Assembly (NCBI RefSeq): GCF_000829825.1
Contig: NZ_JXSL01000027.1
Coordinates: 248,001-312,000, forward strand
DNA length: 64,000 bases
Direction of reading: 5' to 3'
From: Paramagnetospirillum magnetotacticum MS-1
GTDB lineage: Bacteria; Pseudomonadota; Alphaproteobacteria; Rhodospirillales; Magnetospirillaceae
The translations under genes were made by a program, and so were the position numbers. Of this stretch, positions 4,696 to 31,295 are shown piece after piece. Within the stretch, counting starts at the first letter, position 1, and the number at the start of each line of letters is the position of its first letter. The notes under the pieces were generated by a model. That model saw only the letters and a list, made by a program, of their open reading frames with translations. It searched no databases and was not told where the DNA came from.

Positions 4696-6867
4696 ATGAT
4701 GCGCCAATTCGAACTGGTGGAACGCGTCAAGTCCTACGATCCGGGTGCGGACGAGGACGCCATCAACCGCGCCTATGTTTTCGCCATGAAGATGCACGGC
4801 TCGCAATTGCGGGCCTCGGGCGATCCCTATTTCTCCCATCCCATCGAGGTGGCGGGCATCCTGACCAAATACCGTCTGGATTCCTCGTCCATCATTACCG
4901 CCCTGCTGCACGACACCATCGAGGACACGCCCGCGACGCTCGACGATATCGAGAAGCTGTTCGGGCGCGAGATCGGCCGTCTGGTGGATGGCGTCACCAA
5001 GCTGAACCGCATCGAACTGCAATCGGACCACGCCAAGCAGGCTGAAAATCTGCGCAAGCTGGTCCTGGCCATGAGCGAGGACATCCGCGTCCTGCTGGTC
5101 AAACTGGCCGACCGCATGCACAACATGCGCACCCTTCACTACATCAAGAATCCCGACAAGCGCCGCCGCATCGCCATGGAGACCATGGAGATTTACGCGC
5201 CTCTGGCCGAGCGCATCGGCATGCAGGGCATCAAGATGGAGCTGGAGGATCTGGCCTTCGCCGAACTGCACCCGGACGCGCGCGGCTCCATCGTGGCGCG
5301 TCTGTCCTTCCTGCGTGAGCAGGGCGGCGACCTGATCGGGCGCATTCTGGATGAGCTGCGTTCCATCCTGGCCGAGCCGGGGATCAAGGCCGTGGTCTCG
5401 GGGCGCGAGAAGACTCCCTATTCCATCTGGCAGAAGATGCAGCGCAAGAATGTCGGATTCGAACAGCTTTCCGACATCATGGCGTTCCGCGTCGCCGTGG
5501 ACAATGTGGAGGATTGCTACCGGGCCCTGGGGGTCATTCACTCCAAGTATCCGATGGTTCCCAACCGCTTCAAGGACTACATCTCGACACCCAAGCCCAA
5601 CGGCTATCGTAGTTTGCATACCGGGGTGTTCGGGCCCGAGCGCCACCGCATCGAGGTCCAGATCCGAACTTCGGAAATGCATGAAGTGGCCGAACTGGGT
5701 GTGGCCGCCCACTGGAAGTACAAGAACGACAGCGGCGGCGGCAATGGCGGGAACATGACCGATGGCCGCCAGTACCGCTGGCTGCGCGAATTGCTCGACA
5801 TCCTGGAGCATGCCTCCAATCCCGAGGAGTTCCTGGAGCACACCAAGCTGGAGATGTTCTCCGATCAGGTGTTCTGCTTCACGCCCAAGGGCGACCTGAT
5901 CTCGCTGCCCCGTGGCGCCTGCCCGGTGGATTTCGCCTATGCCGTCCACTCCCAGGTGGGCGATACCTGCGTCGGCGCCAAGGTCAACGGCCGCATCATG
6001 CCGCTGCGCACCCAGCTGCAGAACGGCGATCAGGTCGACATCATCACCTCCAAGGCGCAGACGCCGAACCCCACCTGGGAACGCTTCGTCGTCACGGGCA
6101 AGGCCCGCGCCCGCATCCGCCGCTTCATCCGCACCCAGCAGCGCGCCCAATATACCGAACTGGGCCGCGCCATCCTGGTGCGCACCTTCCGCCAAGAGGG
6201 TTACGAGTACACGGAAAAAGCCCTGGAAGGCGTGCTGCGCATCTTCAAGGCGCCGTCGGCGGAGGATCTGCTGGCCCTGGTGGGCGAGGGCACGCTGACC
6301 GGCCGCGACGTGGTCTCCACCGTCTTCCCGGAACTCAAGACCCAGACATCGCGCCCAGACAACGTGGTGGCGCTGAAGGCGCGAAGCGGTAAACCGCTAT
6401 CGGATAAGAAGGACAAGGCCGGGGCGGTGCCCATCAAGGGCCTGATTCCCGGTATGGCCATGCATTTCGCCGGTTGCTGCCATCCGCTGCCCGGTGACCG
6501 GATCGTTGGCATCGTCACCACCGGCAAGGGCGTCACCATCCACACCATCGACTGCGAGAATCTGGAGCAGTTCGCCGATACGCCCGAGCGCTGGCTGGAT
6601 CTGGCCTGGGACGAGGCCGATACCGCCGCCCATCTGGGCCGTATCGATCTGGTGGTGACCAACGAGCCCGGCGCCTTTGGGGCCATTTCCACGGTGATCG
6701 CCAAGAATATGGGCAACATCACCAATCTCAAGATCACCAACCGCACCACTGACTTTTTCGAGATGCTCATCGATATCGAGGTGCGCGACGTCAAGCACCT
6801 CACCAATGTCATCGCCGCGTTGCGCGCCACGCCGGTCATCAATTCGGTGGACCGGGCCAGAAACTAG
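4696..6867 (+). CDS. rsh: Bifunctional (p)ppGpp synthetase/hydrolase (Rel/Spo homologue)
   Basis: A 723-residue stringent-response enzyme. The order is an HD hydrolase domain with HDTIEDT (about residues 70-80), a synthetase domain with RFKDYISTPKPNGYRS (about 295-310), a TGS domain (VFCFTPKGDLISLP, about 393-450), a conserved-cysteine segment (HFAGCCHPLPGD, about 593) and a C-terminal ACT domain (about 650-720). RxKD rather than ExDD in the synthetase loop and an intact HD motif indicate both activities, as for the single Rel/SpoT enzyme of alphaproteobacteria. There are tandem ATGs at 4696 and 4699. Confidence 0.96.
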   Translation: MMRQFELVERVKSYDPGADEDAINRAYVFAMKMHGSQLRASGDPYFSHPIEVAGILTKYRLDSSSIITALLHDTIEDTPATLDDIEKLFGREIGRLVDGVTKLNRIELQSDHAKQAENLRKLVLAMSEDIRVLLVKLADRMHNMRTLHYIKNPDKRRRIAMETMEIYAPLAERIGMQGIKMELEDLAFAELHPDARGSIVARLSFLREQGGDLIGRILDELRSILAEPGIKAVVSGREKTPYSIWQKMQRKNVGFEQLSDIMAFRVAVDNVEDCYRALGVIHSKYPMVPNRFKDYISTPKPNGYRSLHTGVFGPERHRIEVQIRTSEMHEVAELGVAAHWKYKNDSGGGNGGNMTDGRQYRWLRELLDILEHASNPEEFLEHTKLEMFSDQVFCFTPKGDLISLPRGACPVDFAYAVHSQVGDTCVGAKVNGRIMPLRTQLQNGDQVDIITSKAQTPNPTWERFVVTGKARARIRRFIRTQQRAQYTELGRAILVRTFRQEGYEYTEKALEGVLRIFKAPSAEDLLALVGEGTLTGRDVVSTVFPELKTQTSRPDNVVALKARSGKPLSDKKDKAGAVPIKGLIPGMAMHFAGCCHPLPGDRIVGIVTTGKGVTIHTIDCENLEQFADTPERWLDLAWDEADTAAHLGRIDLVVTNEPGAFGAISTVIAKNMGNITNLKITNRTTDFFEMLIDIEVRDVKHLTNVIAALRATPVINSVDRARN

Positions 6868-6890
6868 ACATCACTCCCAGGAGACGTCAC

Positions 6891-7196
6891 ATGCAGGAAT
6901 TTCGCATTCTGTCCATTGCCGCCGGTCTTGCCTTGATCGCTTCCGCGGCCCTCGCCCAATCCTCCGTTGATCTCGACAAGAGCTGGGGCGGTACCAAGGC
7001 GGCCGCGAAGTCGGCGGTCGGCGGGTCCTCCGTCTGCGTTCCCGGTGCCACGGTGGAGGCCTTGTCCGAAGGGGGCTGGTATCCGGCCGTGGTCCTGGAC
7101 CCGCTGCGTGACGGCCGCTGCTTCGTTCATTACGAGGGCTATGGCGCCGATGATGACGAAGCCTTGCCTCCCAACGCCATCCGGTCGCGCCGCTAA
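6891..7196 (+). CDS. Small exported protein with Tudor/agenet-like fold
   Basis: A 101-residue protein with a clear signal peptide (MQEFRILSIAAGLALIASAALAQ, cleaved after ALA). The mature part is short. Its C-terminal half, from about VCVPGATVEALSEGGWYPAV through HYEGYGADDDEALPP, has the Trp-Tyr-Pro-Ala-Val and His-Tyr-Glu-Gly-Tyr pattern of Tudor/agenet-like small barrels. In eukaryotes these barrels bind modified proteins or nucleic acids; in an exported bacterial protein the ligand is unknown. A CAGGAG ribosome site precedes ATG 6891. It lies between rsh and pdxJ, 12 bases before pdxJ, and may be cotranscribed with it. Confidence 0.75.
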   Translation: MQEFRILSIAAGLALIASAALAQSSVDLDKSWGGTKAAAKSAVGGSSVCVPGATVEALSEGGWYPAVVLDPLRDGRCFVHYEGYGADDDEALPPNAIRSRR

Positions 7197-9906: not shown

Positions 9907-11763
9907 ATGCTCGCACTTGCCGCCACCATGCTCACGGTCATCGGATTAGCGGGGCTGCTTCCTGGGTTGGCGCGCGGAGGGCGTGAGGGCGACTGGCTGG
10001 GGGCGCGGGTTTTCTCCGGCTTTTGCCTGCTGCTGCTCCTCGTCTATTTTGGCCATTTGGTGCTGGGCCTGACCTTGCCGGTTGCTGCCGGTGTCTCGGC
10101 TGGGATGGCGGGACTGGGACTGACTCGGCTTGTACTGAGGGGTTTCGGCAAAGACCGGTCTATCCTGGTCCACCCGGTGGTTCTGATGCCGCTGGCCGGT
10201 ATGGTCATCCTGGTGATCCGGGGGCTGGACTATCAGCCGCTGGCCTGGGATGAATTGACCAACTGGCTGGCCTGGACCCGGCAGGCGGCCCTGAAAGGGC
10301 GTCTTCTCGGTGACGATATCAGACACGGCGTTCTTGGTTATACGCCCGGTTGGACCATCGCCTTGGCCTATCCCAATCTGCTGTTCGGCGGTTTCATTGA
10401 AAGCCGCTCGGCCATGGTGCCCTTCGTCATGCATGTGGCGTTGTGCGGTCTGATCCATGACATCGCAATGAGATTAAGGCTGCTTTTGGGAGTGTCGCGG
10501 GTATCGGCCCGCCTGGGCGCCTGGGTCCTGGTCCTCGGCCTTTTGGGCGTCGAGGCCATGTGGCGTCTGGCTCCCACCAATCTGCTGATCGAGAAGCCGC
10601 AAATTTATACCCTGACCGCCGCGTTGCTGTTAGGGCTCTTGATTCTGGAAGACGCTGCCGACCGCATGCGGGCCGGACTGCATCTCGGACTGGTCATCGC
10701 CGGGGGATATCTGATCAAGGTCTCCATGCTGGCCTTCGTCGCTCCGCTGCTTGTCCTACTGGGATGGGCGGCCTTGCGCTCGGCCGGGCAGGGGCGGTCC
10801 AGGATCGCGGTTATGTTCGGGTTAGCCCTGGTGCCGACGATACTGGTCTATGGGGTGTGGCGGAGCGTGGGGGCGGTGCAGGGGTGCATGTCCGACCCCC
10901 TGGCCCTGTTGCCCGGTCTGCTGGCTGGCGGCGATGGTTCGGTCCGCATGACGGATCTGTTCCTGCGGCTGTTCGGAACCATCCTGGCCTATGTGGCGGA
11001 GTTTAAGCTGCCCCTGACCCTGGTCGCGGCCGGGGGCGTGGCCGTGGCCGCTTTCAATGCCCGCCAAAGACCCCTGATCATTGCATTCGCGCTGTACCTG
11101 CTGCTCTATTTCGGGGCGCTGTACGTCTATCATCTCGACTGCTTCGGCGAGTTCTATTTCAAGAACCTAAACTCTCCCGACCGCTTTACCCGTGTCCCGT
11201 TGCGGACATTCCACGCGGCGGGACTGGTGTTGCTGTTCTTCGCGCTGCATCCGGTTGAAGTGCGTCTGCACCGATGGACGCTGCCCATTCTCGCCGCTGT
11301 TCTTGGTGTGTGGGGCGTGTATCGCCTGGATATGAGTATCCGCTCCATGACGGAACGCTTTGAAGCCGCCGGGGAACAGGTGACCACCGTGCGCACCATG
11401 CGCGGCTGGACCGAGGCCGTGGCGGCGCGTGTTCTCCTCCACCCCGAGCAGGGGCGTGACGTTCAGATCATCGCCCAGGGCAGTGACGGCTATGAGGTCA
11501 TGATCATGACCTATTTCGCGGCAGGCCGCTTTATCGTGCATGGCAGCCACAGTTTCGGCGAGGCTCCCATCAATGTCTGGATGAGCAAGGCTTCTCCGGA
11601 TACATTCCGGCGTCGGATCATGGAGTCCTCGTTGGTCGTGCCCGTCCATCTCGATACCTGGGCGAGGCAGAGTCTCGACATTGGGGCCGGTTGTCTGGAC
11701 AGTCCCAGGCTTCTCGTGCCCGATGCCGTCACGGGCCGAATGGAATGCCCGCAGGAGCCTTGA
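9907..11763 (+). CDS. Polytopic membrane protein of unknown function, possibly a GT-C-like glycosyltransferase
   Basis: A 618-residue protein with roughly 11-13 predicted membrane helices through residue 480, then a soluble C-terminal region of about 130 residues. A loop after the early helices reads PLAWDELTNWLAW, resembling the acidic first loop of GT-C lipid-linked-sugar glycosyltransferases, but I cannot show homology. It sits between rnc and era, genes that are normally adjacent, so it looks inserted into the block. It ends 74 bases before era, so cotranscription is possible. Function is not assigned. Confidence 0.7.
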   Translation: MLALAATMLTVIGLAGLLPGLARGGREGDWLGARVFSGFCLLLLLVYFGHLVLGLTLPVAAGVSAGMAGLGLTRLVLRGFGKDRSILVHPVVLMPLAGMVILVIRGLDYQPLAWDELTNWLAWTRQAALKGRLLGDDIRHGVLGYTPGWTIALAYPNLLFGGFIESRSAMVPFVMHVALCGLIHDIAMRLRLLLGVSRVSARLGAWVLVLGLLGVEAMWRLAPTNLLIEKPQIYTLTAALLLGLLILEDAADRMRAGLHLGLVIAGGYLIKVSMLAFVAPLLVLLGWAALRSAGQGRSRIAVMFGLALVPTILVYGVWRSVGAVQGCMSDPLALLPGLLAGGDGSVRMTDLFLRLFGTILAYVAEFKLPLTLVAAGGVAVAAFNARQRPLIIAFALYLLLYFGALYVYHLDCFGEFYFKNLNSPDRFTRVPLRTFHAAGLVLLFFALHPVEVRLHRWTLPILAAVLGVWGVYRLDMSIRSMTERFEAAGEQVTTVRTMRGWTEAVAARVLLHPEQGRDVQIIAQGSDGYEVMIMTYFAAGRFIVHGSHSFGEAPINVWMSKASPDTFRRRIMESSLVVPVHLDTWARQSLDIGAGCLDSPRLLVPDAVTGRMECPQEP

Positions 11764-13091: not shown

Positions 13092-13788
13092 CGACGGAAT
13101 CGTCCTGGCGGTGCGCCGTCATGGCGAAACCGGCGCGGTCGCCTCGCTGCTGACCCGAAGCCATGGCCGCCATGCCGGTCTGGTCCATGGCGGCCAGGGC
13201 CGGACCAATCGTCCCATCCTGCAGCCCGGCAATCTCGTCCGCGCCAAATGGACCGGCCGCCTGCCCGAGCAATTGGGCAATTTCAAACTGGAAATGCTCC
13301 ACGCCTATGGCGCGGCCTTTTTGGATGACGCCGCACGGCTTTCCGCCCTCGGTTCCGCCTGCGCCCTGGTGGAGACGGCCCTGGCCGAACGCCAGCCCCA
13401 TCCCGCCTGCCATGCCGCCCTGGTGGCGCTGCTTCATGCTCTGGAAGCCGAGTCCTGGCCCAGCATCTATGTCCATTTCGAACTGGCCCTGCTGCGCGAC
13501 CTGGGCTTCGGCCTCGACCTCTCGGCCTGCGCCGCGACGGGGCAGACCGACGATCTGGCCTGGGTCAGCCCCAAAACCGGCCGCGCCGTCAGCCGCGCGG
13601 CGGGCGAGCCCTACCGTGACAAGCTGTTCAAGCTTCCCGCCTTCCTGGTCGAAGGCGGGGAGGGCGATGCCGCCGCCATCCGCGAAGGGCTGGAGATGAC
13701 CGGCTTCTTCCTGCAACGCCACGTCCTCGACTCCCGCCATGCTGTTCTGCCGGCGGCGCGGGGACGGATGATCGGGCGGTTGGGGTGA
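13078..13788 (+). CDS. recO: DNA repair protein RecO
   Basis: A 236-residue recombination mediator that, with RecR and RecF, loads RecA on SSB-coated DNA. The N-terminal OB-fold begins MEWDDDGIVLAVRRHGETGAV and contains GRHAGLVHGGQGR; the helical C-terminal domain follows. It lacks the four-cysteine zinc site of some homologues. The era-recO order supports the call. Confidence 0.94.
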   Translation: MEWDDDGIVLAVRRHGETGAVASLLTRSHGRHAGLVHGGQGRTNRPILQPGNLVRAKWTGRLPEQLGNFKLEMLHAYGAAFLDDAARLSALGSACALVETALAERQPHPACHAALVALLHALEAESWPSIYVHFELALLRDLGFGLDLSACAATGQTDDLAWVSPKTGRAVSRAAGEPYRDKLFKLPAFLVEGGEGDAAAIREGLEMTGFFLQRHVLDSRHAVLPAARGRMIGRLG

Positions 13789-13821
13789 TCCTCACGGTTT
13801 AACCGCGATCTGATCCCCATA

Positions 13822-13871
13822 TTGGGCTATCGCCCAAACCCATTTGGGGCCATGCCCCAAGCCCCCTTTTT
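13822..13871 (+). terminator. Double hairpin after recO, likely terminator
   Basis: Two adjacent hairpins: TTGGGC/GCCCAA (13822-13837) and TTGGGGC/GCCCCAA with a CAT loop (13844-13860). The second is followed by GCCCCC and a TTTTT tract. It can terminate the recO transcript. The same sequence style suggests a dispersed intergenic repeat in this genome. Confidence 0.6.
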
Positions 13872-13923
13872 GTTTGTTCGTAAAAATCAGGGGCGGTCAA
13901 TGATGGATTGACTCTGACTCCAT

Positions 13924-15681
13924 TTACTCTCTGCAATTACCCTCTGCTTTCTCATCATGTGCCGCTTTCTCGGGAAAATGTTCGTAGACTGCATCCATGA
14001 GAATGAACCTCAGGATCGGGCGTAGATCTCCTGCGATGTTTTGCAAACGCTCAATACTCCAGTTGCCCATATCATTATGGGAGTTCCAATGCAGATCTTT
14101 GAGCCAATGTGATGCGATGGTGCTCGCTCGCTCGGAAAGCTTTTTGTTGTCTCGAAAAACTTCGGTGCGCGTGCTTGCCATTCCAACCAGTCTTCCAATG
14201 GGAAAATGCTGGCCATTGTCATCTCGGCACGGAAGTTTGATCTGATCGTAGTGGTACACGAGCGCCCATTCCAGCAAAGCCCGCATGAGCATGAACAAGG
14301 ACAGCCGGAACGAGGTTAGATTGTTTTTCGTTGAGCTGAGTTGCGTCAGCTCATAGGTCAGCCGCTTCAGCCGATCATCGTCACGAAGGCACCGAATATC
14401 TTCGAGAAGCAGAAGCGGCCTGGGCTTCTGAACTGGTGGCAGCGTAGAAGGCGTGGCCGCATCCGAATTCATCTCGTCGGGGAGGGCCATGGGAGCCAAC
14501 GGTGGCGACGTACAATCGGCGGGCAGTGGATGAGCCGATACCGTCGAGGGCGGCGTTTCTAGTTCCATATGGCTGCCGTTCGCGCCGTCCTCAGGACCAT
14601 TCGGCGGGATGTCCTTAGGCGAGGCTGGGTTGTCCGGAAGCTCCAGTTGCCCGTCGGTCGGTTCAGTACTGGTGGGCGGCTTCGGTGCGGGTTTTCGGCC
14701 TTCGGTTTTCCTATTGGGCGGAGTGTACAGCGATAGGCCCCCAGCTGGTCTGTTCATGTCGAAGAGGTCAGGTTCCTTTCCTGGGCACGGAACGACCTCA
14801 TTTACCCGATCGCCAATTGGCCAAGTCCGCCGGAGATAATCCTCGACCGAATCTCCCTTGGAAAATTTGTCGTCCGTATCCCTACGCTGGGCAATCAACG
14901 TATGTCGGGCAATCACACCGACCATTTGGTCAAGATTGCTAAAACCAAATCGATTGGGCCGCCCATCATCAAAGAACATGGGTTGCCCAAAGTGGTGTTC
15001 TACTCTTCTAGAAAGTACGGCTCTGAGGAATGGTTCATGATCGACTTGCTCATCACGGTATAGAATGGCCTTTTCATCATCTGGCCACACATTTCCATGA
15101 ATGGCAATTTGGAGAGCCTCTCTTCCACGGAGAAGCTGCTTCACCGTCTTTAGGTCAATCTTAAGGGTTTGGGCAATTTCCTGCTCATTCTTGCTTTTCT
15201 TGAATTCTCGATGGACGTAGCGCATTCGGGATACCAGAGACCATGCCCGCCTTTGAATGACGGCATGGATATTCGCAACGATCGGATCCCCGCGTTCCCT
15301 GTCGTAATCGAAACAGACGTCGATCTTGCTGATGTTGTTCCTGGTTTCATCATCGATGACCGGGATTTGTGGCAGTAGATCGTACGCAGATTCGGGCAGG
15401 ATCTCTGGGTTAAGCAATATCTTGCATGCGGCGGTCCTGCGATTGCCTTCAAGGACGATGTGTTGCTTTCCGTCGAAGTACGTCAGAACGGTCTCGGTCG
15501 GCCAAAGCTCTTTGGCCTCAATGATGCTTTTTGCCAGAGCGATTACATCGTGATCGCGCAGCAGGTGAAGTAAAATCGCCTCTTGGCTGTGTGATGTTAG
15601 CTCGAAGCGTGGATTGTCAGGGTCAAGTTGCAACGCTAAAGGAGAGATGCGATCACGTTGCCAACGATTAGAAACTGTCAT
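13924..15681 (-). CDS. Orphan ParB/Srx-like nuclease-fold protein
   Basis: A 585-residue protein with an N-terminal ParB-like domain (about residues 1-110), including HIVLEGNRRTAACKIL, which corresponds to the nucleotide-binding G-x-R-R box of ParB/Srx proteins. A possible HTH follows (EQEIAQTLKIDLKTVKQLL, about 167-185). A Pro-rich linker (about 320-420) joins a helical C-terminal region with LFMLMRALLEWALVYHY. It is not the chromosomal parB: there is no parA beside it and the architecture differs. Base composition is visibly AT-richer than its neighbours, suggesting horizontal acquisition. ATG 15681 has a GGAGG ribosome site. Comparable orphan ParB-like proteins occur in mobile and defence loci, but no partner is visible here. 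Confidence 0.75.
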   Translation of the reverse strand: MTVSNRWQRDRISPLALQLDPDNPRFELTSHSQEAILLHLLRDHDVIALAKSIIEAKELWPTETVLTYFDGKQHIVLEGNRRTAACKILLNPEILPESAYDLLPQIPVIDDETRNNISKIDVCFDYDRERGDPIVANIHAVIQRRAWSLVSRMRYVHREFKKSKNEQEIAQTLKIDLKTVKQLLRGREALQIAIHGNVWPDDEKAILYRDEQVDHEPFLRAVLSRRVEHHFGQPMFFDDGRPNRFGFSNLDQMVGVIARHTLIAQRRDTDDKFSKGDSVEDYLRRTWPIGDRVNEVVPCPGKEPDLFDMNRPAGGLSLYTPPNRKTEGRKPAPKPPTSTEPTDGQLELPDNPASPKDIPPNGPEDGANGSHMELETPPSTVSAHPLPADCTSPPLAPMALPDEMNSDAATPSTLPPVQKPRPLLLLEDIRCLRDDDRLKRLTYELTQLSSTKNNLTSFRLSLFMLMRALLEWALVYHYDQIKLPCRDDNGQHFPIGRLVGMASTRTEVFRDNKKLSERASTIASHWLKDLHWNSHNDMGNWSIERLQNIAGDLRPILRFILMDAVYEHFPEKAAHDEKAEGNCRE

Positions 15682-15826
15682 GGGGCGGAACCTCCGATAA
15701 CGATGGTTGCAAGAGTTATTTTATAGGTCAAGTGGTGATCTGCTTACTTGGTGGCGCCACCTCAATTTCCTGCGTCCCCACCTGTTAGCAAACCGACATC
15801 CTCCATTCCCCTTGACCTCACCCCAC

Positions 15827-30682: not shown

Positions 30683-30940
30683 CTAAACCGCTCGCCCTTC
30701 CGCTGTCCCATTCGCTATTTCCAATAGCCAATCTTCGACCAGGGACAGGCGGTCGTCGCATTCCTGGCGTTGGAGGCAATCCTCGCGATGGAGGCAGTCT
30801 TGCACGATGGAGGCGGTGCTGCGGACCAAGTCGGGATCTGGGCGCCGACCGGCCCATTTCAGCGCCAGATCCAGCCCTTGCAGGCATGTGCAGTCGAGTC
30901 CCTGGCCCATGGCTATCTCCCTAAAGGAGGTTTGTGCCAT
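30683..30940 (-). CDS. Small cysteine-rich protein of unknown function
   Basis: An 85-residue protein starting MAQTSFREIAMGQGLDCTC. It has a CTC pair near the N-terminus, a central LDLALKWAGRRPDPDLVRS helix and a distal DCLHREDCLQRQECDDR block of three spaced cysteines. It ends with LVEDWLLEIANG. The pattern resembles small cysteine-bearing alphaproteobacterial proteins of unknown function such as DUF6455, but I cannot confirm the family. ATG 30940 has a TCCTTT-complementary AAAGGAGG-like context only on the opposite strand, so the start is less certain. An overlapping plus-strand frame is considered spurious. Confidence 0.5.
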   Translation of the reverse strand: MAQTSFREIAMGQGLDCTCLQGLDLALKWAGRRPDPDLVRSTASIVQDCLHREDCLQRQECDDRLSLVEDWLLEIANGTAEGRAV

Positions 30941-31295
30941 TATCATATCGCCAAAAAGGCGATGATGTATCGCATCTTGTTTGGTGCATTGATAGGATCT
31001 GCGAGTGTATCCCATACCAAATATATAATCAAAAAAATCCGCCCCGAACCTATTGGTCGGGGCGGTGGCAGTTGCTTAGAGAGGGAGGCTGACCTCGGGG
31101 GGGAGGTCAACATCTGGAATAAGACTAACAAGCAGCTTTTGTTACGTCAAATGATTTTAAGGTGCGATGCGGTAATTCCGAGCAATTCTGTCGGGATGAA
31201 GGATGGGTGCGATCTATCTATCTGATTTCATTATGAGAAATAACGATATTCGGGGCATTGGTCCCGGATCGATTTGGTCACAAGCTTGAAAAATT
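30941..31295. other. 355-base AT-rich intergenic stretch
   Basis: No convincing gene is seen. It carries a minus-strand terminator (31031-31065) and a second small inverted repeat TGACCTC/GAGGTCA (31090-31109). The composition is clearly AT-richer than the flanking genes. A small RNA ending at the minus-strand terminator is possible. Confidence 0.5.
31031..31065 (-). terminator. Rho-independent terminator, minus strand
   Basis: A perfect 9-bp stem CCGCCCCGA/TCGGGGCGG (31039-31047 with 31057-31065) is followed, read on the minus strand, by ATTTTTTT. It lies 230 bases beyond the end of the COG0523 gene. It may end the znuA-hisI-COG0523 transcript or an unannotated small RNA. Confidence 0.8.

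Follow-up and report, generated by a model that had tools for sequence, protein, structure and literature searches.

A methyltransferase-less relative of the PD-Lambda-5 A subunit as a candidate solo defence gene in Paramagnetospirillum magnetotacticum MS-1

A single gene in the stretch of the Paramagnetospirillum magnetotacticum MS-1 genome that we analysed (64,000 nucleotides, hereafter the window; the genome itself is G000) is probably derived from PD-Lambda-5_A as a solo form lacking the methyltransferase, carried on mobile accessory DNA and serving a role in defence. PD-Lambda-5 is an anti-phage system of E. coli that has been validated by experiment; it emerged from a functional selection in this species, had an effect on nine of ten phages tested, and has been described as restriction-modification and abortive infection in compacted form (RM+Abi) (Vassallo et al. 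2022, PMC9519451). It consists of a ParB-like subunit A and a D12 adenine methyltransferase, subunit B. The window protein has both the ParB-like N-terminus of subunit A and an A-type C-terminal domain with conserved R/E/H residues, but its gene lies between recO and a ligase gene, with no D12 methyltransferase adjacent. No description of a solo form was found in the literature. A sequence-only reading of this DNA had suggested a single-gene accessory or defence function, which still appears to be the best reading because the gene stands alone, is sporadic in its distribution, and shows homology to PD-Lambda-5_A.

An inserted gene between recO and a ligase gene

The locus comprises the following features, in window positions:

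13924–15681, minus strand: solo PD-Lambda-5_A-like gene, 585 aa, ATG start (open reading frame, PADLOC and PHROG matches, dN/dS)
15691–15695, minus strand: Shine-Dalgarno sequence GGAGG, 9 nt upstream of the ATG (from sequence)
13786–15795, unstranded: inserted segment between recO and the ligase gene, ~2.0 kb, 52% GC (empty sites in congeners)
13821–13893, plus strand: dispersed REP-like palindromic repeat with a terminator-like hairpin at 13843–13861 and a T-run (repeat matches, hairpin)

Coordinates, strand, and start codon of the 585-residue open reading frame are exactly those assigned earlier. With a GC content of 52.4% and a GC3 of 56.5%, the gene lies ~3 SD off the mean of the 53 predicted window genes (63.2 +/- 3.1% and 78.6 +/- 6.7%, respectively). 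It had been singled out as the sole gene of foreign composition, and it is indeed the only convincing one so far off, but a doubtful 145-aa open reading frame at 30788–31225 is AT-rich to a similar degree. As had also been noted, neither parA nor any plasmid gene lies alongside: the neighbours, as read from open reading frames, are recO and an acyl-CoA-ligase-type gene. This neighbourhood is a housekeeping one and not a defence island, which counts against the defence reading.

The recO–ligase junction is empty in five congeners (G016, G010, G013, G009, and G008), in which the gap measures 155–286 bp; the flanks of the insertion are 80–89% identical to these genomes, and the alignment ends at window positions ~13785 and ~15795. 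About 2.0 kb carrying this one gene alone therefore entered one lineage. While recO was present in each of 16 further genomes from the genus, the window gene was absent from 15 of the 16 searched, the sole carrier (G016) having it at a different place. Homologues of normal composition at the same site in every relative had been named as the pattern that would point to a housekeeping role; the comparison of related genomes instead revealed empty sites, sporadic presence, and other members at unrelated loci. No integrase, transposase, or clear target-site duplication was seen at the insertion. Of the terminator-like repeats previously thought to flank the gene, a single one was found, on the plus strand and on the recO side of the gene. 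Since this hairpin is part of a palindromic repeat that is scattered over the genome (17 other matches), it is not specific to the window gene, and it was ruled out as a specific boundary of the insertion.

Domain organisation and homology to PD-Lambda-5_A

The protein is divided into four parts, all encoded on the minus strand:

15247–15681, minus strand: N-terminal ParB-like domain, residues 1–145 (DPDNPR, EGNRR, and H139 motifs; Foldseek, profile match)
15436–15450, minus strand: EGNRR motif, residues 78–82, corresponding to the nucleotide-binding GERR motif of ParB
14797–15246, minus strand: helical middle region with HTH, residues 146–295 (model helices; ParB/KorB/Noc matches)
within the middle region, minus strand: solo-clade signature HFGxxxFxxxGxxN, residues 230–243 (alignment)
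14416–14796, minus strand: Pro-rich disordered linker, residues 296–422 (pLDDT ~30, highest dN/dS)
13981–14415, minus strand: C-terminal helical effector-like domain, residues 423–567 (AlphaFold, hhalign, dN/dS)
14269–14283, minus strand: R467–E471 of the conserved triad (of 30 long homologues, 29 have the R and all have the E)
14077–14079, minus strand: H535 of the conserved triad (H in all 29 long homologues that have a residue at this position)

Neither Pfam nor NCBIfam nor a PDB search with the single sequence returned a usable match for the window protein. PADLOC PD-Lambda-5_A profiles, in turn, matched residues ~10–175 (best 1.8e-21), and phage family PHROG_9592 matched the protein at 1.5e-33. 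In a BLASTP comparison with a prophage homologue (L070), the N-terminal part aligned at 3e-33 and the C-terminal part at 0.002, while in another solo-clade member (L133) the PD-Lambda-5_A profile match covers residues 8–493 of 496. Alignment of the C-terminal part with PD-Lambda-5_A C-termini by hhalign gave an E-value of 1.3e-8, compared to 0.35 for a control region. Judged by these profile and sequence comparisons, the window protein as a whole is homologous to PD-Lambda-5_A, though diverged. A tblastn search of plasmids and phages yielded distant N-terminal matches only, and provided a route to an A+B pair in phage AS1, where a D12 methyltransferase matching PD-Lambda-5_B at 4e-103 comes after the homologue. 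The likeness to PD-Lambda-5 thus consists of homology along subunit A, with the same order of ParB-like domain, HTH, linker, and C-terminal helical domain, of the EGNRR and R/E/H residues common to both, and of mobility. The window protein and its clade differ from PD-Lambda-5 in that no member has a B methyltransferase beside its gene, and in their long stem in the tree and two signatures of their own (HFGxxxFxxxGxxN and NxHxxxGN), which were identified by alignment and do not occur in the additional phage homologues examined.

AlphaFold gave a weak model of the full-length protein (pLDDT 53.7), and the Foldseek matches of this model are led by ParB, Spo0J, Noc, and KorB, which fill the first 30 places with probabilities of 0.82–1.00 and E-values of only 0.002–0.1. 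These structural matches extend over the HTH middle region, i.e., the DNA-binding domain. A family profile matched Helicobacter Spo0J (4umk) at 2e-4, with EGNRR aligned onto GERR, and residues G79, N80, R81, R82, H139, and W147 are invariant in 30–31 long homologues. Both the ParB fold with an HTH-like region and the Pro-rich linker proposed from sequence were thus recovered. Because the N-terminal motifs differ from those of known ParB CTPases, nucleotide binding by this domain is a guess.

The C-terminal domain was modelled apart from the rest because the full-length model was too weak there. Built from 21 homologous sequences, the separate AlphaFold model is a helical bundle (pLDDT 89, pTM 0.84), so that the domain's earlier description as helical holds; given its homology to the PD-Lambda-5_A C-terminus, it is not unique, as had been supposed. 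Profile search and structure prediction at the two ends of the protein, both suggested beforehand, hence led to a ParB fold N-terminally and to PD-Lambda-5_A homology C-terminally. HEPN proteins lead the Foldseek list for the C-terminal model, although weakly (best E-value 0.78, probability 0.60, TM ~0.45). This bundle resemblance and the conserved R, E, and H recall HEPN effectors such as HEPN-MNT toxins, Csm6, and AbiV, but the fold match is not significant and the canonical Rx4-6H motif is absent, with no R located 5–7 residues ahead of H535 in the window protein. Given the weak matches and the missing motif, "HEPN-like" is a lead for this predicted domain, and although the domain may have nuclease activity, we lean somewhat against it.

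Methyltransferase neighbours, solo clades, and mobility

Among full-length long A proteins encoded on distinct phage or viral contigs with the downstream side present, a D12 methyltransferase was adjacent in 32 of 32 cases, and the same holds for seven genome-borne A proteins (L058, L060, L064, L065, and L135–L137). The retrieved flanks of six solo-clade members contained no B, RE, or C5 relative, and none was seen beside the window gene upon inspection; the neighbour search modelled D12 and C5 methyltransferases, and other types may have escaped it near some homologues. Genes adjoining the solo loci, as read by eye, are mostly housekeeping genes. The examination of homologue neighbourhoods for restriction or defence genes, which the sequence-only reading had proposed, pointed to D12 methyltransferases beside phage A proteins and to one retron, in genome G082.

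The solo form is represented by seven members, i.e., the window gene and those of G016, G082 (L004), G632, G655, G660, and G652, which form one clade with 100/100 support nested within the A+B tree. A second solo clade (L061–L063) also has 100/100 support. A single origin of both was ruled out, as the supported branches force two changes; on this tree, the second clade lost B separately. In two of its three members, a T5orf172/MUG113 (GIY-YIG-like) gene lies downstream in convergent orientation (L061 8985–9473, L063 9932–10405), and this gene may replace the methyltransferase as a partner.

Members of the window clade were detected in 3/55 genomes of the family and 7/317 of the order, the collections searched being samples, and this presence fits an accessory gene. 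They occupy several unrelated sites, except that the sites in G655, G652, and G660, all from one genus of the order, look alike, which suggests vertical inheritance within that genus. The G016 copy lacks its first 84 residues and lies beside a prophage-like region, and the G652 copy (L134 5604–8325) is split by an insertion sequence, recognised by sequence from an IS3-like transposase gene at 6289–7146. In G082, the gene is part of a small island:

4704–10386 of L066 (G082:C45): 5.6-kb island with an integrase-like gene, a type I-C retron RT-Toprim gene, and the solo ParB-like gene

This island starts at a tRNA-Ala(GGC) gene (4704–4779) and is bounded by 49-bp direct repeats (4735–4783 and 10338–10386) that repeat the 3' half of the tRNA-Ala gene. 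The retron gene (2e-215) precedes the solo gene on the same strand, at a distance of 97 bp.

Two further types of gene cassette were observed. Some phages encode three-gene cassettes composed of a short ParB-like A protein, a 310–356-aa protein whose motifs read as endonuclease-like, and mostly a D12 or C5 methyltransferase, which is present in most and is either convergent or following (L018, L057, L071, L072, L074, L095–L100, L109–L114, and others). Three of the endonuclease-like proteins were scanned, with no Pfam match. These cassettes share the ParB-like N-terminal domain with the window protein and are methyltransferase-linked in most cases, but the C-terminal domain is missing from their A protein and replaced by a separate protein, and no solo form is seen; they possibly represent an undescribed restriction-modification type. 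In the window genome, Tn7-like genes (TnsA-like, rve/Mu-type TnsB, TnsC-like, and TniQ) are found at G000:C9:66011–76854 (L067 4012–14855), and beside them are genes for a HerA-like ATPase, a 453-aa protein, and a PD-Lambda-5_B-like D12 methyltransferase, which constitute a candidate defence cargo.

Alternative readings and a proposed mechanism

The protein might still work as PD-Lambda-5, with a trans-acting B methyltransferase elsewhere in the genome marking self DNA, and G000 does encode one B-like D12 methyltransferase on another contig (E-value 4e-66). Since this enzyme adjoins the HerA-like ATPase gene near the Tn7-like transposon, however, it is most likely part of that cassette. G632, G660, and G652, three of the six other solo genomes, lack any B match, G016 and G082 have weak D12 matches only (best 1.6e-20 and 3.7e-18), and the B of G655 sits with its own second, short A-type gene, making this alternative unlikely. 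We also consider it rather improbable that the gene is a functionless, decaying remnant of PD-Lambda-5 after methyltransferase loss. While two of the seven members are broken (the truncated G016 copy at a prophage edge and the interrupted G652 copy), the dN/dS of the whole window gene is 0.16 against G016 and 0.06 against G082, the two closest homologues, the latter value being rough because synonymous sites are saturated. Conserved domains reach values of only 0.03–0.08 (C-terminal domain 0.067 against G016), compared to 0.31–0.46 in the linker, the fastest-changing part of the protein. These low values indicate that the window protein is under constraint, with strong purifying selection on both conserved domains, and the solo clade is moreover old and diverse, with its own conserved signature.

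Resemblance of the N-terminal and middle domains to ParB, KorB, and Noc raises the alternative of a DNA-binding regulator or partition-like ParB of a mobile element. The window protein shares with ParB, Spo0J, Noc, and KorB the fold of the N-terminal and DNA-binding domains (probability 1.00 and E-value 0.002 for the best match) and a GERR-type motif, present as GNRR. It differs from them in having neither an adjacent parA nor a partition locus or replicon nearby, and in its C-terminal helical domain, which replaces the ParB dimerisation domain, carries the conserved polar triad, and has no ParB match. The G082 member, furthermore, is cargo of a small tRNA-Ala island and not of a plasmid, and the methyltransferase pairing of relatives speaks against a partition role, so that we regard this alternative as quite improbable. 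A role as an accessory of the type I-C retron is suggested by the closely spaced, co-oriented genes of G082 and is highly improbable: a retron adjoins only one of the seven solo members, and no type I-C RT was found anywhere in G000 or G016, for which reason a retron partnership as a general rule was rejected.

Under the preferred reading of a solo PD-Lambda-5_A derivative with a defence role, the ParB-like N-terminal and HTH domains would contact DNA, a nucleotide, or both, and serve as a switch for sensing phage DNA or infection. The linker, flexible and Pro-rich, would relay the state of this switch to the HEPN-like helical domain at the C-terminus, where the R/E/H triad would then halt phage replication or the cell in an abortive infection, with nucleic acid as the probable target. 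Lacking a cognate methyltransferase, the solo protein cannot use that self-methylation mark and needs either a trigger from the phage or a mark already present in the host. Release could accordingly depend on a cue specific to phage (for instance modified DNA, intermediates of replication, or a protein of the phage), or alternatively on the reading of a mark that the host already makes.

The solo branch has kept the conserved residues of a toxic-looking subunit without the protecting methyltransferase, which raises the question of how the host is spared. Solo and A+B forms represent a natural pair for finding the trigger, and a caller demanding both A and B genes would overlook the solo form. 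At slightly less than even confidence, we propose that an RM-like defence became methyltransferase-free at least twice, and that its ParB-like sensor, fused to a killing domain, may discriminate phage from self without a modification enzyme, acting either as an abortive system triggered by phage or as a detector of modified DNA in phages.
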